Shown: piece by piece, positions 301 through 33,220 of the stretch
Layout of the letters: each line of letters opens with the position of its first letter
Position numbering within the stretch: the first letter of the stretch is position 1
From: a virus
DNA: 37,943 nucleotides
IMG/VR virus record: IMGVR_UViG_3300036854_000076
Span: 1-37,943 of that record
Direction: 5' to 3' (one strand)
Notes under the pieces: model-generated
Seen by the model: the letters and a program-made list of their open reading frames with translations, nothing else
Database searches by the model: none
What the model was told of the DNA's origin: nothing
Made by a program: the position numbers and the translations under genes

Positions 301-489
301 ATGAGGCCGTTCGACGTCGACACCCGAGTGAAGGCGGAGCAGATCGAGGCGCACCACCGGCGGTGCGGGCGCTGCCGCAGCCTGTACGAGGCGGCGCGCC
401 GGCTAGAGTCGCAGAGCGCGGTCGACGTCTGGCGGCGGGAGTTCTGGGCCTGCTGGAGCCGGCTGCACCCGCGCCGCCCGCCGAGCTAG
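301..489 (+). CDS. Small zinc-motif protein (anti-sigma zinc-finger-like), 62 aa
   Basis: The ATG at 301 is preferred over upstream in-frame starts because a promoter ends only 8 bases before it. Residues H18, C22 and C25 give the H-x3-C-x2-C pattern typical of zinc-binding anti-sigma domains, followed by an amphipathic helix (RSLYEAARRL) as in that family; the rest is basic and Trp-rich. The protein is far shorter than a complete anti-sigma factor and has no membrane span, so the resemblance could be limited to a zinc-stabilised helix. Its stop codon shares the palindrome CTAG (486-489) with the stop of the convergent integrase gene. Function is inferred only from the motif. Confidence 0.55.
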   Translation: MRPFDVDTRVKAEQIEAHHRRCGRCRSLYEAARRLESQSAVDVWRREFWACWSRLHPRRPPS

Positions 490-1316
490 CGGCCGAGCAG
501 CTGCCCGAGCTTAGCCGTCGCCGCGCGGAGGTCGCGCTCGTTGACGATCCTGTAGCGCCAGAAGACGTGGTCGGTCTTGTGCCCGGTGAGCAGCATCGCC
601 GTCTTGTGGTCGACGCCGGCGTTCACGAGGTTGCGGACGGCCGACCGCCGGAAGTCGTGGGGGAGGATCGTCTCTAGCCCGGCCGCCCGGCACGCGAGCC
701 GCCACGCCCCGTAGGCGTTCCGGATCGGCTTCCCGTTGAACCGGTGGAAGAGGTACCGCGCCGAGACCGGCGGCCGCTCCAGCTGGTGAAGGACGAGGGC
801 GCGGAGGCCGAGGCAGTCGAGCGGGAAGCGTCGGCTCTCGCGGTTCTTCGAGTCCCGCAGCGTGACCCAGCCGCCGGTCAGGTCGACGTCGGTCTTCAAG
901 AGCGGGAAGACCTCGTCGCGCATCCGCCAGCCGGTGACGTACGCGAACGTGAACGACCCCTGCAGCGCCTCCGGCAGCCTAGAGCAGGCCCGGTCGAAGT
1001 CCGGCATCTCGAGGAACCCGACCCGCGCCGGCGGGAGGGACAAGTCCTCCGGCATCGCGGGGACCCGGACGCGCGCCAGCTTGAGGGCGCGGCGGAGCGC
1101 GGCGAGCTCGGCGCGGACGGTCGCGTTCCCGGCCCCGCCCTCGTTCCGCGCGCCCCAGTAGCTCACCAGGTCGTCCTCGTCGACCGCTCCGACCTGGCGG
1201 CCGCCGAAGAACGGCGCGACGTGCTTCCGGACCCGGCGCTCGACCTCCGATAGCCCGCGGCGGCCGGAGAGGCGGTAGCGGACGAGGTAGCGGTCGAGGG
1301 CGTCTCCGATCGTCAC
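486..1316 (-). CDS. int: Tyrosine recombinase / phage integrase, 276 aa
   Basis: This is a site-specific recombinase of the lambda-Int/XerD superfamily, expected to integrate and excise the phage genome. The N-terminal ~95 residues form the helical core-binding domain. The catalytic domain carries R131 (in GWRMRDE), K157 (in SKNRES), the H220-x-x-R223 box (PHDFRR), H246 (LTGHK) and the nucleophile Y255 (WRYRI), so all catalytic positions are present and the length is normal. The GTG start at 1316 lies 6 bases after a TACACT -10 box, so the mRNA is probably leaderless and no Shine-Dalgarno site is present. It is transcribed alone towards the left edge. A second tyrosine recombinase lies at 32330. 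Confidence 0.93.
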   Translation of the reverse strand: MTIGDALDRYLVRYRLSGRRGLSEVERRVRKHVAPFFGGRQVGAVDEDDLVSYWGARNEGGAGNATVRAELAALRRALKLARVRVPAMPEDLSLPPARVGFLEMPDFDRACSRLPEALQGSFTFAYVTGWRMRDEVFPLLKTDVDLTGGWVTLRDSKNRESRRFPLDCLGLRALVLHQLERPPVSARYLFHRFNGKPIRNAYGAWRLACRAAGLETILPHDFRRSAVRNLVNAGVDHKTAMLLTGHKTDHVFWRYRIVNERDLRAATAKLGQLLGR

Positions 1317-1322
1317 TGCTGC

Positions 1323-1359
1323 AGTGTACCGGAGGCACCGCGCGGTGTCAAGCGGTGTC
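1323..1359 (-). promoter_or_regulatory. Integrase promoter with phased operator hexamers
   Basis: On the minus strand TTGACA (1351-1346), a 17-base spacer and TACACT (1328-1323) make a strong sigma70-type promoter. On the plus strand the hexamers GGCACC (1334), GGTGTC (1344) and GGTGTC (1354) start exactly 10 bp apart; the first two form a near-perfect 16-bp palindrome lying in the spacer, and the -35 box sits inside the repeats. This is the layout of a repressible promoter. Confidence 0.65.
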
Positions 1360-7277: not shown

Positions 7278-8525
7278 CTAGCCCTGCCCGAGAAGGGACT
7301 GAATCTTGCCGCCCCCGAGGCTCCCGCCGACCCCGACGAGCCCCTGCGTCGGCGGGCCGACGCCGCCGGCCGCCTCGGAGACGGACGAGCCGACCAGCGC
7401 GTTTCCGGCGGAGCTAGCGAGGCTGCCTCCGCCGAGGCTCCCGGCTGTCCCGGCGGCCGAGCCGACCCCGGCGAGGATGTTCGCCAGCGCCTCCCGGTCC
7501 GCCGCGGCGTCGGCCTGCTTCTGTGCGTTGAGTTTCTCCATCGCCGTCCCCTTCGCGCCCCGCTCCTGGGCCGCTATCTGCCGCTGCGCGAGGCGGGTCC
7601 GCGCGGCCCGGTCGAGCTCGCCAGCGAGGGACGCACGGAAGGTTGACGGGAACGCGAGGTTCCGGAGCCGGCCGGACGTCAGCTCCTGGAGCGCGCCGGC
7701 CCGGTTCTCCGCTAGTCGGGAGAAGCCATCGATCGACTGGCGGTTGTACTGCGCGAACGCCTCGGACCTCTCGCGGTCGAAGTTGGCGAGCGCCTGCGAG
7801 CCGGCCGTACTCGTCTCGTAGTCCGGCCCCATCTGGCGCCGGAGCCTGTCGCGCAGGGTCCGCTCTCGCTCGTCGAAGCTGCTCTTGAGCGTCGGGTCGA
7901 GCGGCTCCTTGCCGGCGAGTGCGTCTGCCAGGTGGAGGTTGAAGGAGTCGAGGGCGGCGCCGAAGGCGTTACCTCCGCTCCCGGTCGGGTCCGCGACGCC
8001 GGCGATCGGCTTGAACCCGACGACCTTCCGCCCGACCGCGCCGCGCTGCTCCAGCTCGCTCTGGAGGCCCGGTATCTCCTTGTTGAGGCGCGTCGCCTCC
8101 CGCCTCAGCTGGCGTAGCTCCTTCGCCCGGCCCTTCTTCCCCGGACCGCGTGCCCCCTGGAGCTCGGCCCGGCGCTGCTGGAGCTGGCTGAGCCGCTCCT
8201 GCTTTCCGGCGAGCGCCTGTGACCGGGTCGCGAAGTCCGGGTCCTCGGGGCGGTCGTACACGGGCTCGAGCCCGAGCGCCCTATACATCTCCGGCTCGAG
8301 CTGCTTCCCCTGCGCGAGGGCGTCGTCGAGGACCGAGCGCTCGGCGTCCATGACGTCCTGTGTCCCCCGGTTGAACAGCCGCTCCCGGAGGCCGGGGGCG
8401 ACGTAGCCGGCGCCGGCGAGACCGCCGGACGCACTGCTGCCCCCCTGCGTCGCCTTGAGGGCGGTCGACGCGACCGTCGCCGCCGCCGCGACGCCGACCG
8501 CTACCGCTGCCGTTACTGCCGCCAT
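7278..8525 (-). CDS. Internal virion protein candidate with coiled coil, 415 aa
   Basis: The N-terminus is an Ala/Val-rich hydrophobic segment (residues 2-25), then a Gly/Ser-rich linker, long charged coiled-coil segments (about residues 85-160) and an Ala/Gln-rich helical region (290-345). The C-terminus is Gly/Ser-rich. Hydrophobic N-terminus plus coiled coil and the location upstream of the transglycosylase-bearing protein match ejection-complex proteins of short-tailed phages. No catalytic residues are seen. Confidence 0.72.
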   Translation of the reverse strand: MAAVTAAVAVGVAAAATVASTALKATQGGSSASGGLAGAGYVAPGLRERLFNRGTQDVMDAERSVLDDALAQGKQLEPEMYRALGLEPVYDRPEDPDFATRSQALAGKQERLSQLQQRRAELQGARGPGKKGRAKELRQLRREATRLNKEIPGLQSELEQRGAVGRKVVGFKPIAGVADPTGSGGNAFGAALDSFNLHLADALAGKEPLDPTLKSSFDERERTLRDRLRRQMGPDYETSTAGSQALANFDRERSEAFAQYNRQSIDGFSRLAENRAGALQELTSGRLRNLAFPSTFRASLAGELDRAARTRLAQRQIAAQERGAKGTAMEKLNAQKQADAAADREALANILAGVGSAAGTAGSLGGGSLASSAGNALVGSSVSEAAGGVGPPTQGLVGVGGSLGGGKIQSLLGQG

Positions 8526-23385: not shown

Positions 23386-23895
23386 TTATGCTGTTGACGG
23401 TATCAACTCCACGATCAGAGTCTTCTCCGTAATCGAATTAGACAGCGACGCGGTTCCCCACTGGGCTGTTACGCTCAATACCTGATCTACGGTGGTGTTA
23501 ATTGAGGCCGCAAACGCAGGTGGGAACTCAAAGACCTTCGGCACCAGGGAACTATCCTCAGCGAAGAAAACTCTACCCTCTGCTTTTGCTGTTCCACTAG
23601 CACCTATGGACCGAAACTCTACGATACCTTGGATATCGAAGAAGTGCGCTGCTGCGTTAGCGATAGGAGAGGTTACCGCTCCCGTGTCAACAACTACGAC
23701 GCTCCCGAGTTTGATTCGTACGCGAAGTGTAGGAGGCACTAGAGTCGTAGTGTACGATCCACTTATTGTAAGCCGAAACGATGTTCCCGCGACAACGGTA
23801 TCCGCAGGAATTGTCAGTGTAGAAGGAAACAACGTGGTCTCGGTCGTCGTATTCGCAACGGCGACGTCCGAAGAAGCAACGTAGATGAAGCCCAC
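23386..23895 (-). CDS. Beta-rich fibre-associated protein, 169 aa
   Basis: Jelly-roll-like sequence with alternating hydrophobic strands (TTLFPSTLTIPADTVV, LRVRIKLGSVVVVDTG) seen in many phage fibre-tip and appendage proteins. GTG start shares one base with the collagen-fibre stop (TAGTG), so it is coupled to the fibre and may be its tip, chaperone or trimerisation partner. Codon use and base composition are clearly more AT-rich than in the rest of the operon. Confidence 0.62.
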   Translation of the reverse strand: MGFIYVASSDVAVANTTTETTLFPSTLTIPADTVVAGTSFRLTISGSYTTTLVPPTLRVRIKLGSVVVVDTGAVTSPIANAAAHFFDIQGIVEFRSIGASGTAKAEGRVFFAEDSSLVPKVFEFPPAFAASINTTVDQVLSVTAQWGTASLSNSITEKTLIVELIPSTA

Positions 23896-25925
23896 TACAG
23901 GTTGCTCCAGGCCCCGGCGACACGGGCTTGTACAGCTAGGGCTGTAGTGTTGTAGACCATCATCCCGTTGACCGCCGTCATCGCATCTCGCTGCGTCGTT
24001 GTCATTCGAGGCAGCAAAAACGCCTTAGTTACGCTCTGGACTTCTAAGGCAACTGAGGAATTCGTAGGCGCTGCGTTTGTCCCGAAGACTCCGGGGCCCG
24101 CGTGGCGCATCTCGGTCGCCGACCCGAGCGACCGAAGGGAGAGGCTGACTGTGGCCGTCTGGGCCTCGACGTCGACCGCGACCGAGGTGTCCTGCGTCCC
24201 GGTGCCGAGGCGGTTCTTGTGCCAGACGGTGCGCCGTGTCGTCGCCGTAACCCCGGAGTTGAACGTCGGCTCGGAGTAGATCGACGTGTGCTCGGTCTGC
24301 GTGAGCGTGCCGGCGTTGACGATCTCGTACTTCGTCTGGTCGGCGACGGGGCGGAAGCTCGGAATGGTGCAGGCGGCTCCGTCCGCTCGAATTATCGCCT
24401 GCGACACGAGGAGCGCCCACGCGCCTAGGTTCGTGATCGCGACGCCCGGGTTGTTCCGGATTAGCGGCTCGAAGAGGAAGATCGAGCCGCCGCCGCCGAA
24501 GCCGCTCAGCATCGCCTGGTTGATCGTCCAGGTTCCGGCGACGTCGAGCACGAAGACGCCGTCCGTACTGTTGTCGAACGTGAGAGTCGGCGAGACCTCG
24601 GTGACGTGCCACGAGCCGGGGACGCTGTAGGAGCCCGACTGGAAGAAGACGGTCCCCCGGGTCGGGTTCGACGTCGAGTTGAACGTCAGGTCGTCGCCGG
24701 AGCCGGTTCCGCCGATCCCCGTCTGCCCGCCGGCCCGGCCCGGCAGGCGGAAGTAATCCAAGTGGTCGTCGTCGCCGAGCCCGGCCAGCCCGCCGTGGTC
24801 GACGCCGGAGGCGATGACGGACGCGCTGATCGTCGGGTTCCCGGCGACGCCGCCGGGGTTGGTGATCGTCAGGTCGACCGTCGACGTGTCGGTGACGGCG
24901 ATCGATCGCGTTACCCAGGAGTCGGCGGCGTTCCGGACGGCGATCCCGGTCGTGATGAGCGCCTCGAGGCCGGCCAGGTCGTTGTCGAGGACGAGCGTCG
25001 GGTCGCCGGCGACCCCGGCGGGGTTCACGATCGCTATGCCCTCGGCCGGCGCGACGAGGGACCGAAGGGCCCAGGTGTCCACGTCCGTCCGGCAGGCAAG
25101 GCCGGTGCCGGAGAGGGCGGCGAGCGCGTTCAGGTCGGCGTCGAGCGAGTACTCGGAGAAGAGGGTGCCGGGCTCCTCGGCGTCGAGGCCGGGTGGTCCA
25201 GAAGGGCCCGCGGCCCCGCGGAGCCCGGTGTCGCCGCGGTTCCCGGGCAGGCCCTCGAGACCGTCCTCGCCGTCGAGGCCGGGCGACCCAGCAGGTCCGG
25301 CGGAACCGGGCGCACCGGCGGGGCCGGCGGGACCCGGCATCCCCAGCTCCCCGTCCTCGCCGTCGAGCCCCGGCGGCCCGGAGGCCCCGGCTGAGCCCGC
25401 CGCACCCGTAGCGCCTGTAGCGCCGGGCGACCCTGGCGGTCCCGGCTGTCCCGGCTCGCCGTCTTCTCCGTCCAGCCCGGGAGGGCCGGTCAGCCCGGTC
25501 GCACCTGTCGCCCCGGCCGCCCCGGTCGCTCCCGCAGGCCCGGTCGCACCTTGCGACCCCGGCGGACCCGGCTCCCCGGGCGCGCCGTCGTCGCCGTCTA
25601 GACCGGGAGGTCCGCTCAGCCCCTGCGCGCCCGGCGCCCCCGGGGAGCCTTGCGGCCCTTGCGGCCCCGTAGCCCCGTCTGCTCCAGGGGGGCCCGGCTC
25701 CCCGTCCTCTCCGTCGATACCGGGAGGGCCGCTCGGACCGGCGGCACCGGCAGCCCCGGGAGGGCCGCTCGGGCCGGTAGCGCCCGTAGCGCCGGTAGCC
25801 CCGGGCTCGCCGGGGGAGCCCTGCGGGCCGGGCTCTCCGTCTACTCCTGGGGGACCGTCGGACCCGGGCACGCCGGCGGGGCCGGCCGGTCCGATGGCGA
25901 CCGACGTGTCCTCGAAGAAGGACAC
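23895..25925 (-). CDS. Collagen-like tail fibre, 676 aa
   Basis: After an 11-residue lead come 79 uninterrupted Gly-X-Y triplets (residues 12-248), predicting a collagen triple helix. Next are two fibre-type repeats containing [22 protein letters not shown] and [18 protein letters not shown], and the phage-fibre motif [17 protein letters not shown] beta-rich region precedes the C-terminal tip (residues ~620-676) with [16 protein letters not shown] and VAGAWSNL, a common fibre ending. It should be a trimeric receptor-binding or head/tail fibre. The last ~50 codons are more AT-rich than the rest, as if the tip was exchanged. Confidence 0.85.
25182..25892 (-). repeat. Gly-X-Y collagen repeat array (79 triplets)
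   Basis: The coding sequence repeats with a 9-base unit, and at a higher level a module around GPPG(L/V/I)DGEDGEPG returns every 10-14 triplets (triplets 5, 19, 32, 46, 58, 68 and 78). Proline is frequent in the Y position (GPP, GEP, GSP, GAP). The array is a likely site of length variation by unequal recombination. Confidence 0.85.
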
Positions 25926-28362: not shown

Positions 28363-28406
28363 GGGGTCTCCCTCCAGGGTGCGCCGGAGCGGCGCGAATC
28401 GTCAGG

Positions 28407-28475
28407 GTGAGGGCCGGACTCGAACCGGATCACGCGATCCACAGTCGCGCGCTCTAACCATTGAGCTACCCTCAC
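28407..28475 (-). tRNA. tRNA-His (anticodon GTG), short
   Basis: Minus strand cloverleaf: 7-bp acceptor stem (GTGAGGG with CCCTCAC), D-arm with GCTC/GAGC, 5-bp anticodon stem CGCGA/TCGCG closing the loop CTGTGGA (anticodon GTG), and a T-loop TTCGAGT on a 4-bp stem. It is 69 bases, because the variable region and T-stem are each a base or so short. CCA is not encoded. The base before the acceptor is T, so the extra G-1 usual for tRNA-His would have to be added or be counted within the stem. Confidence 0.82.
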
Positions 28476-29148: not shown

Positions 29149-29224
29149 TGGATGCGGAGGCGGGAATCGAACGCCGCGACCTCCGGGTTATGAGCCCGGC
29201 GCGCTACCTCTGCGCTACTCCGCG
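29149..29224 (-). tRNA. Initiator-type tRNA-fMet (anticodon CAT), CCA encoded
   Basis: Acceptor CGCGGAG pairs with CTCCGCA except for the first position, giving the C1-A72 mismatch that marks bacterial initiator tRNA. The anticodon stem CCGGG/CCCGG supplies the three consecutive G-C pairs next to the loop CTCATAA. D-arm is GCGC/GCGC. T73 and CCA (29151-29149) are encoded. The T-stem GCGG-C-G / CCCGC contains one extra, bulged C, an abnormal feature for a functional tRNA. Confidence 0.85.
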
Positions 29225-29269: not shown

Positions 29270-29680
29270 CTAAGCCGACGCGGATTCGATCTGCCTGAGG
29301 TCGGTGATCCCGAGCGCGCGGACCGCGGTGACGACGATCTGGCGCAGCTCAACCTCGCTCATGCTCGAGAGGTCCGGCCGGCTGTCCGGCCCGCCGCTGA
29401 GGAACGAGCGGAGGCGGGAGAGCTCGTCGACGGCCTTCACTAGGTTGAGCCCGGCCTTGACGAAGCGGTCGTAGACGATCGAGAGGCGCTCGGTGTCCTC
29501 GAACGCCTCGTCCGACCCCGCGAGCGCCGTCTTGAGCTTCTCTAGGAGGGCGGGGAGCTGGTCGCTCACCGACTCCGAGAGCTCGATGTTCCGCTCGGCG
29601 ACGCCGACGTACCGGCGGACGCTCTTGTCGAGGGAGGCCGCGTCGTACGCTACGAGCGGCCCAGGTCGCGCGCTGGACAC
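29270..29680 (-). CDS. First gene of the late operon, helical protein, 136 aa
   Basis: The open frame extends to 29743, but the promoter -10 box ends at 29689, so the GTG at 29680, 8 bases later, is the best start and the mRNA would be leaderless. The protein is helical and acidic, with Leu-rich segments (DQLPALLEKLKTALAGS, FVKAGLNLVKAVDELSRL) and a C-terminal ELRQIVVTAVRALGITDL. Size and position would allow a small terminase subunit, but no DNA-binding helix-turn-helix is evident. A scaffold-like or regulatory role is equally possible. Confidence 0.6.
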   Translation of the reverse strand: MSSARPGPLVAYDAASLDKSVRRYVGVAERNIELSESVSDQLPALLEKLKTALAGSDEAFEDTERLSIVYDRFVKAGLNLVKAVDELSRLRSFLSGGPDSRPDLSSMSEVELRQIVVTAVRALGITDLRQIESASA

Positions 29681-29688
29681 AGGGGGGC

Positions 29689-29733
29689 AGTGTATCATAA
29701 CAGCCCGGTGTGTGTCAAGCACCGTGCGGTGCC
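29689..29733 (-). promoter_or_regulatory. Late promoter with adjacent operator
   Basis: Minus strand TTGACA (29718-29713), 18-base spacer, TACACT (29694-29689). Overlapping and upstream of the -35 is AGCACC-GTGC-GGTGCC (plus strand 29718-29733), an inverted pair of operator hexamers with the same 4-base gap as at the integrase promoter. It should start the long leftward virion/lysis transcript. Confidence 0.6.
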
Positions 29734-30041
29734 TCACGTACACTTTTCCTCCCGGCTGACGCGCGGTACACGCGGCGCGATGGGACGCTGCACGCTACGG
29801 CCCCCTCCCCCCTTCGGTTGATTGCCAAGCGCCGAAGCTAACACGGTGCGGCAATCGTCTAAGTATTGGATAAGACGAGGAAACTAGCGAGCGCTGATTA
29901 CCAAGGGGTGACCCTCAGAAGCCCGTGCAAATGACCCCTTTGTGCGCTGTGTCAAAATGCGACACCCTCGCGTAGGCGGGGCCGGACCGAGGGGCGCGCG
30001 CATGATACCCGGCGAGACCAGGCGCGCGACCCTAGCCCGGC
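29734..30041. other. Non-coding control region rich in inverted repeats
   Basis: About 300 bases without a supportable gene, locally AT-richer than its surroundings. Inverted repeats seen: CTTCGG/CCGAAG (29812-29837), GATTGCC/GGCAATC (29820-29856), TCGTCT/AGACGA with 12-base centre (29855-29878), AAGGGGT/ACCCCTT (~29903-29940) and GTGTC/GACAC (~29950-29965). Candidates are an attachment site for one of the recombinases, a replication origin or a transcription terminator for the repressor genes. Confidence 0.4.
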
Positions 30042-30197
30042 TCAGTCGCTGCTAGATTGCGAGGCTAGCCCCTCAACCAGCGCGAGGACGAGAAGCGCCC
30101 GTGTGTCAATGCCTAACCGAGTGGCGAGCCGCTGTGCTCTCGCTAGCACGTCGCGGCTCAACCCCTCATCATCCTGCCGCCGCAACGGCTTCGCCAT
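30042..30197 (-). CDS. Ribbon-helix-helix-like small protein, 51 aa
   Basis: After a basic N-terminal strand region (AKPLRRQDDEGL) comes a helix-turn-helix pair LSRDVLARAQRLATRLGIDTRALLVLALVEGL, the arrangement of Arc/CopG repressors. The strand is less typical than in its neighbour, so assignment is cautious. GGAGGTAAACGAC precedes the ATG. It is 5 bases downstream of a second RHH gene, an arrangement recalling the arc-mnt type of immunity region. Confidence 0.6.
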   Translation of the reverse strand: MAKPLRRQDDEGLSRDVLARAQRLATRLGIDTRALLVLALVEGLASQSSSD

Positions 30198-30202
30198 GTC
30201 GT

Positions 30203-30406
30203 TTACCTCCGAGGTGGCGGATGCAGCGGGCGTGCCACTCCGAGGCGCTCCTCTAGCTTCGCTAGTCCTTCCTCGACGGCTAAGCGGAGCACCTCGCCGG
30301 GCTTGCGGCGGTCGCGCACCGCAATCTCCTCGGCCCGAGCGACGAGCTCGTCGGGAAGCCATAGGTTTTTCCGGCGCTTCCCCTTCGGCGTCTGCTTCTT
30401 AGCCAT
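30203..30406 (-). CDS. Ribbon-helix-helix transcriptional repressor, 67 aa
   Basis: Basic lead (KKQTPKGKRRK), a strand NLWLP, helix DELVARAEEIAVRDRR, turn, helix KPGEVLRLAVEEGLAKLEERL: the full Arc/CopG/MetJ fold. Such proteins bind as dimers to short repeated half-sites. ATG 30406 has a GGAGG site; an in-frame ATG at 30433 would add nine residues and overlaps the stop of the micro-ORF at 30430 by four bases. It is transcribed from the leftward member of the divergent promoter pair and is the best candidate for the phage repressor acting on the GRCACC-type operators. Confidence 0.75.
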   Translation of the reverse strand: MAKKQTPKGKRRKNLWLPDELVARAEEIAVRDRRKPGEVLRLAVEEGLAKLEERLGVARPLHPPPRR

Positions 30407-30429
30407 CCCACGCACCCTCCGTCTCGCAG

Positions 30430-30471
30430 TCATATCCGAGACGCACCCTGGCGGCAACATTTTGTCGACAT
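30430..30471 (-). CDS. Leaderless 13-aa leader peptide of the repressor operon
   Basis: ATG at 30471 lies exactly 6 bases after the TACAGA -10 box (30483-30478), so transcription should start at the ATG. The 13 codons (MSTKCCRQGASRI) end with TGA overlapping an in-frame ATG of the repressor by four bases (ATGA). It may serve only to couple ribosomes into the repressor gene. Evidence is positional; the peptide itself has no known relatives. Confidence 0.4.
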   Translation of the reverse strand: MSTKCCRQGASRI

Positions 30472-30477
30472 GGTGCT

Positions 30478-30507
30478 TCTGTACCACCGCGCGGGGGTAC
30501 TTGACAA
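30478..30507 (-). promoter_or_regulatory. Leftward repressor promoter
   Basis: TTGTCA (30507-30502), 18-base spacer, TACAGA (30483-30478), reading into the ribbon-helix-helix genes. Its -35 hexamer overlaps the rightward -35 in the palindrome TTGACAA, so RNA polymerase cannot occupy both at once. Confidence 0.5.
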
Positions 30508-30551
30508 CCCCTGAGTGCCGGTGTTACACACTCTGGTGCCTGGCGAGCACC
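30501..30551 (+). promoter_or_regulatory. Rightward early promoter with flanking operator-like repeats
   Basis: TTGACA (30501-30506), 17-base spacer, TTACAC (30524-30529; TACACA one base later also fits). Downstream lies GGTGC-N7-GCACC (30535-30551) and upstream GGTGC (30472-30476). It should drive the early operon beginning at 30536/30613. Confidence 0.55.
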
Positions 30552-30616
30552 TTGCAGTGCAGACGGGCAGCGGCAATCAAGCCGCCAGTAGCGAGTCGGA
30601 GGTCGAGAACCAATGA
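30536..30616 (+). CDS. Leaderless 26-aa leader ORF of the early operon
   Basis: GTG at 30536 is 6 bases after the -10 box, matching the geometry of the other leaderless genes. The ORF of 26 codons ends in TGA that overlaps the next ATG by four bases (ATGA, 30613-30616). The peptide is polar and Ser/Glu-rich without recognisable motif. It mirrors the 13-aa leader on the opposite side of the divergent promoters. Confidence 0.4.
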   Translation: MPGEHLAVQTGSGNQAASSESEVENQ

Positions 30617-30792
30617 CCAAAAAGCATTTCGAGTATGCCGCTCAGGCGGTGCAGCTGTACCAGACGGAGGCAGACCGCGACATACTAGTCAACTTCCTAG
30701 TCCAGCTATTCGCGCGGTTCGCCCCGTCCTTCGATAACGGCCGCTTCCGCCGCGCCTGCGTCCCCGGCGCGAACGTGAGGGCACGGTCATGA
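30613..30792 (+). CDS. Small early protein, 59 aa
   Basis: ATG with GGAGG about 9 bases upstream and also coupled to the leader ORF. Helical N-terminal half (FEYAAQAVQLYQTEADRD) and a hydrophobic-aromatic centre (ILVNFLVQLFARFAPSF), basic end. This pattern is frequent in small phage early proteins that interact with host enzymes. No family assigned. Confidence 0.6.
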   Translation: MTKKHFEYAAQAVQLYQTEADRDILVNFLVQLFARFAPSFDNGRFRRACVPGANVRARS

Positions 30793-30917
30793 CGGATACT
30801 GACCGCCACTCAGACGAGTGCAACAAAGCGAACGATCGCAGCGCCATCGAAGTCTGCATCTGCGGCAAGCTCGCCGCCTACCGCGCCGCACGGCGCGAGA
30901 ACGAGACGGAGGTGTAG
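30789..30917 (+). CDS. Tiny Cys-containing protein, 42 aa
   Basis: ATGA overlap with the previous stop. Contains one Cys early and a C-x-C pair (EVCICG), perhaps a metal site; the C-terminal part is helical and charged. Supported by tight packing in the operon, function unknown. Confidence 0.5.
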   Translation: MTDTDRHSDECNKANDRSAIEVCICGKLAAYRAARRENETEV

Positions 30918-30919
30918 CG

Positions 30920-31021
30920 ATGGCTCTTAACGACTCATGGACGTGTGCGCGCTGCGGCACAACGTGGTTGTGGCGCTACTTCGTGTCGTGCCCGGGTTGC
31001 CCGGGCCGACGAACTAACTAA
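30920..31021 (+). CDS. Zinc-ribbon micro-protein, 33 aa
   Basis: Starts 3 bases after the previous stop with GGAGGTGTAGCG as ribosome site. Two C-x2-C pairs (CARC and CPGC) separated by 15 residues with aromatic residues between them form a minimal zinc ribbon. Such small ribbons often bind nucleic acid or host RNA polymerase. No name can be given. Confidence 0.55.
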   Translation: MALNDSWTCARCGTTWLWRYFVSCPGCPGRRTN

Positions 31022-31055
31022 CCGGCGCCCCGCGCGCCTTAACGAGGAGACTCCA

Positions 31056-31241
31056 ATGGACCGACACAGCAGCTACACCAACGGCTACCGCTTCGCGACG
31101 GCCTACGCCCGCGCGCACGGCCTCGCGACTCTACTCCGTACCCTTTCCCGCGACGTCGAGCGGATGACGGACGACGTCCAGCGGCCCTACCTCGCCGGCG
31201 AGGTCGACGCGGCGATTGCGATCGCGCAGGGGGCGCGATGA
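31056..31241 (+). CDS. Hypothetical early protein, 61 aa
   Basis: ATG with a GAGGAG ribosome site. Helical, with Tyr-rich start (SSYTNGYRFATAYARAHGLA) and an acidic C-terminal helix. No recognised family. Four-base overlap with the next gene. Confidence 0.58.
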   Translation: MDRHSSYTNGYRFATAYARAHGLATLLRTLSRDVERMTDDVQRPYLAGEVDAAIAIAQGAR

Positions 31242-31447
31242 CGCGCAAGAAGATCGCGCCCTTCCGTGTCGGCCTACTCGACTGGCACACACGCGACCTT
31301 AGCGGGCACGGCGACCACGAAGACGGCTCTAGCGAAGGCTACTTCACCGGCGAGGTCGACACGTGGGGCAAGCGAACGTTCCAGCCCTTGCACGGTCCTA
31401 CGCTCTACCTGTTCCCCGACGAGCTGACTGAGTGGCAGCCCCACTAG
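31238..31447 (+). CDS. Hypothetical early protein, 69 aa
   Basis: ATGA-coupled to the previous gene. A His/Asp-rich central segment (WHTRDLSGHGDHEDGS) could bind metal; the C-terminus has a strand-rich YLFPDELTEW. No family recognised. Confidence 0.55.
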   Translation: MTRKKIAPFRVGLLDWHTRDLSGHGDHEDGSSEGYFTGEVDTWGKRTFQPLHGPTLYLFPDELTEWQPH

Positions 31448-31458
31448 GCCCCTGCGGT

Positions 31459-31482
31459 GTCCCCGCTCACCCGGGCGGGGAC
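31459..31482 (+). terminator. Perfect 8-bp hairpin between early genes
   Basis: GTCCCCGC (31459-31466) and GCGGGGAC (31475-31482) with an 8-base loop, 12 bases after the stop at 31447. No T-run follows, so it may attenuate or protect RNA rather than terminate fully. Confidence 0.45.
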
Positions 31483-31515
31483 GACGGAGCGGCTTGCTCC
31501 AGAAGGAGAACGTGC

Positions 31516-32333: not shown

Positions 32334-33220
32334 CGCCGGTCGACATTTACCTCGGGACCCTCGCGCCGTCCTCGCGCCGCGTCATCATCAGCGACCTCAA
32401 CAGGCTCGCCCAGGATGCCTTTCCTGGCGCATTAGAGCCGGTTACAGACCTTCCATGGGACACTCTAGGGGTAGACCACTGGGTCGCCGTCCGGGAGGCC
32501 GTAGCGCGCGCCTACGCGCCGGCAACGGCTAACCGGATGCTCGCCGCCGCCAAGGGTGTCATCCGCGCCACCTGGCGTGCCGGCCTCGTCACATGGGACG
32601 TCCAACTGCGCCTCCTCGCCTCGCTGCCGGCGGTCCGCGGCGGCCGGGTCACCAGGGGGCGAGCCCTGACCTGGCACGAGTTCGAGAAGCTACTCGCCGC
32701 CGCCAGGGGGTACGAGGAGCGGGCCCTCCTAGCGACCCTCGCAGGTGCGGGGTGCCGGCGGGCCGAGGTCCTCGCCCTGACCTGGGACCGGTTCACCCGC
32801 CACGATCGGACGTTCTACCTTCGGGTCCTCGGGAAGGGGAACAAGGAGCGCCGGCTGCGGGTCCCGTCGTGGGTCGCGAGCGCCCTCTCGTCGTGGCGGA
32901 CCCGCTGCCCCGACCGCGAGCGCATCTTCCGGTGGCGGAACACCGACAGCGTCCGCGACGTCGTCGTCGCCAGCGCCGCTCGAGCCGGCCTCGGCCCGCT
33001 CGCGCCGCACGACATGCGCCGGACGTTCTACGCCCTCTGCTGCCGGAGCGGGATGAGGGACCGGGACATCCAGCGGGCGATGGGGCACGCGTCGATCTCG
33101 ACGACGATGAAGTACGACCGCAGAGGAGACGAGGAGGCTCTTGCCGAGATGTCCCGGCTAGATAGCCTCGCCGCCGATGGTGCCGCAGGGGCACCGCTTG
33201 ACACCAAGCGGCGCCGCTGA
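32330..33220 (+). CDS. Second tyrosine recombinase (XerC/D-like), 296 aa, probable CTG start
   Basis: Full-length XerC/D-type recombinase. Core-binding N-terminal domain (residues ~1-100), catalytic R143 (AGCRRAEVLAL), K169/K172 (GKGNKERR), H227-x-x-R230 (PHDMRR), H253 (MGHASISTT) and nucleophile Y262 (MKYDR). No ATG, GTG or TTG exists in frame between the upstream in-frame stop and ATG 32537, which would delete most of the N-terminal domain. CTG at 32330 gives the complete protein, has GAGGAG 9 bases upstream and overlaps the previous stop as CTGA. It could resolve genome dimers, act at a second att site, or control excision. The stop is in the next promoter. Confidence 0.85.
   Translation: MTPVDIYLGTLAPSSRRVIISDLNRLAQDAFPGALEPVTDLPWDTLGVDHWVAVREAVARAYAPATANRMLAAAKGVIRATWRAGLVTWDVQLRLLASLPAVRGGRVTRGRALTWHEFEKLLAAARGYEERALLATLAGAGCRRAEVLALTWDRFTRHDRTFYLRVLGKGNKERRLRVPSWVASALSSWRTRCPDRERIFRWRNTDSVRDVVVASAARAGLGPLAPHDMRRTFYALCCRSGMRDRDIQRAMGHASISTTMKYDRRGDEEALAEMSRLDSLAADGAAGAPLDTKRRR

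Follow-up and report, generated by a model that had tools for sequence, protein, structure and literature searches.

The divergent control region of the uncultured temperate phage analysed here probably consists of a putative ribbon-helix-helix (RHH) repressor operon and, opposite to it, an early operon with a sigma-54-type promoter as its main source of transcription. The analysed DNA, referred to as the window, comprises 37,943 nt and corresponds to positions 1-37,943 of the record IMGVR_UViG_3300036854_000076. A sequence-only reading had interpreted the same region as a divergent switch, and the opposition of a small operon for an RHH-type regulator to the early genes supported this view. 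The same reading had assigned control to translation initiation on leaderless mRNAs in addition to repressor binding; for such initiation the region provided less support. The relevant features are listed in Table 1.

Table 1. Features of the window discussed in the text
Feature	Position	Strand	Remarks
int1, tyrosine integrase	486-1316	-	Pfam PF00589, E=4.7e-15; GTG 6 nt after TACACT (leaderless-type)
Operator-like GCACCGCGCGGTGT	1335-1348		within integrase promoter; one mismatch; 0.4 expected in window
Strict late-side promoter TTGACA-N18-TACACT	29689-29718	-	GTG of orf29270 product 8 nt downstream
Operator-like GCACCGTGCGGTGC	29719-29732		adjoins -35 of late-side promoter; exact; 0.05 expected in window
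RHH2-like, 51 aa	30042-30197	-	next in operon; Shine-Dalgarno GGAGG before ATG 30197; sequence resemblance
RHH1, 67 aa, likely RHH regulator	30203-30406	-	start ATG 30406; Shine-Dalgarno GGAGGG 30420-30415
Leftward micro-ORF, 13 codons (MSTKCCRQGASRI)	30430-30471	-	ATG 6 nt after -10
Candidate leftward promoter of repressor operon, TTGTCA-N18-TACAGA	30478-30507	-	sequence
Weak sigma-70-like rightward promoter, TTGACA-N17-TTACAC (or N18-TACACA)	30501-30529	+	fails strict test
Rightward micro-ORF, 26 codons	30536-30616	+	not conserved; G005 with indels and without ATGA
Putative sigma-54-type promoter, TGGC (30541-30544)-N7-TTGCA (30552-30556)	30541-30556	+	predicted start ~30567
Operator-like GCACCTTGCAGTGC	30547-30560		on sigma-54 -12 element; two mismatches to GCACCGnnCGGTGC
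GCGGCAATCAAGCCGCC, candidate hairpin at transcript 5' end, or binding site	30570-30586	+	identical in G005
Shine-Dalgarno GGAGG of E1	30598-30602	+	sequence; GGAGG at same place in G005
E1, first early gene, 59 aa	30613-30792	+	homologues in 30 viral loci
int2, tyrosine integrase	32537-33220	opposite to int1

The phage and its relatives

The window was compared with three contigs that have capsid, portal and terminase in common with the window phage, designated G001 (L002, L009 and L010), G002 (L003 and L006-L008) and G005 (L011, L020 and L021). The capsid proteins of G001 and G002 are 91-92% identical to that of the window phage and the capsid protein of G005 is 70% identical. The nearest homologous leader was found in G005, which also encodes an E1 homologue with 51% identity. 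Searches of the GTDB genomes with the capsid and terminase alignments yielded no relative that would point to the host, named phages gave no DNA match to the window, and no Rfam match above the gathering cut-offs was obtained. An RHH repressor belonging to a lysogeny module is expected in the same genome as an integrase, and both int1 and int2 accompany the putative RHH genes; int2 is common to G001 and G002, and int1 to G005. The window additionally contains a long protein with collagen-type repeats (23895-25925) and, on the minus strand, genes for tRNA-His (28405-28475) and tRNA-Met (29153-29223).

A conserved sigma-54-type box precedes the early genes

The pattern TGGCN7TTGCW yielded a single match in the window, at 30541-30556, where 0.19 are expected. 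In this match the -24 GG and the -12 GC are 10 bp apart and the TGGC/TTGCW core is complete; its -24 half (TGGCGAG) departs further from the canonical sequence than the TGGCACG of one G001 box. In the four phages, comprising 162 kb, six boxes were detected versus about 0.6 expected. Two are located in each of the G001 and G002 early regions and one in that of G005, whereas the late regions L006 and L009 contain none. All six boxes are located in early regions in sense direction, combine the GG-N10-GC spacing with TTGCA and lie roughly 12-60 nt before start codons; five of them are followed by a Shine-Dalgarno sequence and a start codon, an arrangement that occurred 0 times in shuffles. As would be expected of a sigma-54 promoter, the relatives have kept the box in front of genes: each of the four phages has one before its first early gene, and G001 and G002 each have a second one before another early gene. 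An alignment of window positions 30541-30615 with the G005 leader demonstrated that the box, the 17-mer GCGGCAATCAAGCCGCC and the motif CGAGnCGGAGG before the ATG were kept, along with their approximate spacing. The locus L187, which encodes an E1 homologue, was considered as a third conserved leader and left uncounted, its box being located inside an upstream ORF. The GGAGG of E1 itself is positioned ten nucleotides before the ATG; the E1 protein matched no Pfam or PHROG family.

The uniform GG-N10-GC spacing with TTGCA, sense orientation and placement of all six boxes, together with the Shine-Dalgarno sequences after five, make it unlikely that the box represents the binding site of another regulator or a replication-related element, although the searches for a host and for an activator gene were empty, nothing pointed to an rpoN gene, and other conserved noncoding DNA is located nearby. 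A sigma-54 activator domain (PF00158) was encoded in none of the four phages, and HTH_8 gave a sub-threshold match in G001 alone. Activity of a sigma-54 promoter in these phages would therefore require an activator of the host and its distant sites. Most studied phage early promoters use the housekeeping sigma factor, and a literature search of limited scope, which is not proof of absence, revealed no account of sigma-54 control over the early operon of a phage. The element resembles the -24/-12 promoters of sigma-54 (RpoN) in its TGGC-N7-TTGCA core, its GG-N10-GC spacing and its location upstream of a Shine-Dalgarno sequence and a gene. Unlike the known promoters of this type, it is found at phage early genes, in phages devoid of an activator gene, and its recognition by RpoN is predicted.

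The GCGGC element downstream of the box

Transcription from the sigma-54-type promoter would start near 30567, and the resulting mRNA would open with a GCGGC-AATCAA-GCCGC element. In the window leader, GCGGCAATCAAGCCGCC folds as a 5-bp stem. The exact 16-mer of this element was detected in 107 viral stretches, most of which lack a comparable context, and a sense box at most 90 nt upstream accompanies 3 of 106 matches versus 0.5 expected. Two of the stretches, L126 and L155, contain a perfect sigma-54 box that is followed by GCGGCAATCAAGCCGC 11-12 nt later; with a G+C content of about 45% they are alike each other and show no evident relation to the window phage. A tie of the 16-mer to sigma-54 boxes beyond these phages is suggestive, not conclusive. 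Moreover, GCGGCAAT is repeated on either side of the early control region, at 29848 and 30570 in the window and at 7957 and 7872 in L011, which as candidate activator sites provides only a lead. The repeat GGTGCTTCTGTACCA / GGTGCAGCTGTACCA (30472, 30648) was dropped as likely due to chance according to a rough estimate.

Divergent promoter hexamers

The sequence-only reading had described two divergent promoters with overlapping -35 boxes, each followed after six bases by the start codon of a micro-ORF, and every named string was found exactly in place. Leftward, TTGTCA (30507-30502) is separated by N18 from TACAGA (30483-30478), which is followed after 6 nt by ATG 30471; rightward, TTGACA (30501-30506), N17 and TTACAC (30524-30529) are followed after 6 nt by GTG 30536. 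The shared palindrome TTGACAA is present and occurs once in the whole window. The symmetry of the two halves is nevertheless softer than claimed, as the quality of the hexamers is uneven. TTACAC agrees with TATAAT at two of six positions, and the alternative rightward -10 TACACA (N18) is the better hexamer, with which the gap to the GTG becomes 5 and not 6. When a strict promoter test (TTGACA with TAnnnT) was applied, neither the leftward nor the rightward pair was reported in positions 29500-31500, and both were left out in the scan of the four phage genomes, in which 5 of 6 matches to TTGACA sufficed. A TTGACA-type rightward promoter was not seen in the G005 leader.

These observations bear on a dual arrangement in which a sigma-70-type promoter (30501-30529), possibly giving leaderless mRNA, and the sigma-54-type promoter feed the early operon under differing conditions, with the sigma-70-type promoter as the target of the repressor. 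The perfect TTGACA, the overlap of the two promoters, the adjacency of the repressor module to TTGACA and the joint absence from the relatives (no detected RHH1 in G001 and G002, no TTGACA in the G005 leader) are consistent with it; we regard it as rather unlikely in view of the poor -10 (2-3 of 6) and of the possibility that TTGACAA serves the leftward promoter alone.

Micro-ORFs and leaderless-type starts

The two micro-ORFs were proposed to end in TGA codons that overlap the first ATG of the repressor frame and the ATG of the first early gene. On the left, the TGA at 30432-30430 indeed overlaps ATG 30433, but this codon has no Shine-Dalgarno sequence and is doubtful as the repressor start; the likely start of RHH1 is ATG 30406, which is preceded by GGAGGG at 8-nt spacing. 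On the right, the TGA overlaps the E1 start codon ATG 30613; the E1 protein family begins Met-Thr-Lys-Lys (MTKK-type), and this start accounts for the ATGA. Owing to a Thr or Ser at residue two, ATGA is present at the start of 27 of the 30 E1 homologues, and just six of these 27 have an in-frame ATG/GTG micro-ORF. Conservation of the rightward junction did not extend to G005, where E1 starts with ATGT and the micro-ORF frame is broken by indels. Moreover, 24 of the 1346 ATG/GTG codons in the window (~1.8%) open an ORF of 8-40 codons that closes in the ATGA of a frame with 55 or more codons. Each junction is uncommon, not rare, and the pair was selected from 38 kb. The rightward micro-ORF is probably an accident of overlap, not a gene.

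Leaderless initiation as such is plausible in this phage group. Among the strict promoters of the four phages, five of eight have a GTG 6-8 nt after the -10, and the homologues of the orf29270 promoter in G001 and G002 have a GTG 6 and 7 nt downstream, respectively. In G005 (L011 ~7430-7460, minus strand), a GTG located 6 nt after TAGGAT opens a six-codon ORF (VGSAAA and a stop codon), the TGA of which forms an ATGA with the start codon of the orf29270 homologue. The integrase (1316-1351) and late-side (29680-29718) promoters of the window share the form TTGACA-N17/18-TACACT, with a GTG 6 and 8 nt downstream, and are examples at which leaderless initiation is plausible.

At the right-hand site of the control region, leaderless coupling was not borne out: the site is overlapped by the conserved sigma-54-type promoter, neither the ORF nor the ATGA is present in G005, and E1 is preceded by a Shine-Dalgarno sequence. 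Should the box act as a promoter, its start near 30567 would be located downstream of GTG 30536, and that mRNA would therefore lack the micro-ORF start. Leaderless initiation at ATG 30471 on the left is conceivable. Small leaderless ORFs that are coupled to the next gene by RTGA are enriched in mycobacteria (Shell et al. 2015, PMC4633059). The window ORFs resemble these coupled ORFs in having an RTG at the predicted 5' end, a small ORF and an RTGA to the next gene, and differ from them in that the right ORF is not conserved, a Shine-Dalgarno sequence directly serves the downstream gene and the coupling is predicted from the sequence. The complete proposal, namely that both promoters give leaderless mRNAs and that the micro-ORFs pass ribosomes on via ATGA to the genes of the repressor and of the early operon, can draw on the presence of every named string, on the leaderless-type spacing within the group, on the G005 ORF and on the mycobacterial precedent. 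It appears improbable in the light of the non-conserved rightward ORF, the MTKK-type start, the weak -10 hexamers and the Shine-Dalgarno sequences at E1 and ATG 30406, with none at ATG 30433. Caution is advisable before short ORFs at promoters are called translated leaders when the first residues of the downstream protein fix the junction.

The repressor operon and candidate operators

The assignment of RHH1 to the ribbon-helix-helix class is weakly supported by a RelB-type match (E=0.002) with a score below the curated cut-off, by a predicted model with two helices (mean pLDDT 76), and by top structural matches that are mostly RHH proteins, none of them significant (E above 0.5). The RHH2-like protein had no family match. 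Relatives of RHH1 were detected neither in G001 and G002 nor in the viral collection. The phage P22 repressors Arc and Mnt are RHH proteins. The window resembles that system in having an operon for two small RHH-like proteins opposite early genes, with candidate palindromic operators; it differs in that no sequence homology of these proteins to Arc and Mnt was shown and the repressor role is putative.

Palindromes with at most one mismatch to GCACCGnnCGGTGC are present only in the RHH1-bearing phage and absent from the three relatives. The operator expectations in Table 1 are post hoc, as the GCACCGnnCGGTGC pattern was drawn from matched sites. About six two-mismatch copies are expected in the window, and the copy at 30547-30560 alone is not significant. 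RHH1 probably binds the candidate GCACC-type palindromes.

A noncoding block at ~29895-30010 (AAGGGGTGACC...CTCGCGTAGG) shows partial conservation across the four phages and may represent an origin, a packaging site or a regulatory site. The RHH operon of the window is located between this block and the early promoter, whereas only about 150 nt separate them in G005; the repressor operon thus has the appearance of an insertion.

A model of early gene control

According to the reading that we favour, the -24/-12 element would act as the main early promoter; the box is conserved, and its use by RpoN is the predicted step. The early mRNA would carry a normal Shine-Dalgarno sequence for E1, and GTG 30536 of the 26-codon ORF would not be part of it. 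The repressor, supplied by leftward transcription from TTGTCA/TACAGA and probably translated from ATG 30406, may bind the GCACC-type palindromes at the -12 element, the integrase promoter and the late-side promoter. A broader scenario, which we put forward tentatively as possible and short of probable, is that of a temperate phage lineage with early genes under host sigma-54, in which a host stress or nutrient activator gates lytic entry, the RHH repressor can occlude the -12 element, and the unrelated L126 and L155 have the GCGGC-AATCAA-GCCGC element of the transcript start in common with these phages. If this is true, lysis would depend on signals of a host activator, for instance nitrogen or stress status, and the early genes of these phages may answer to a host regulator that has rarely been linked to phages.
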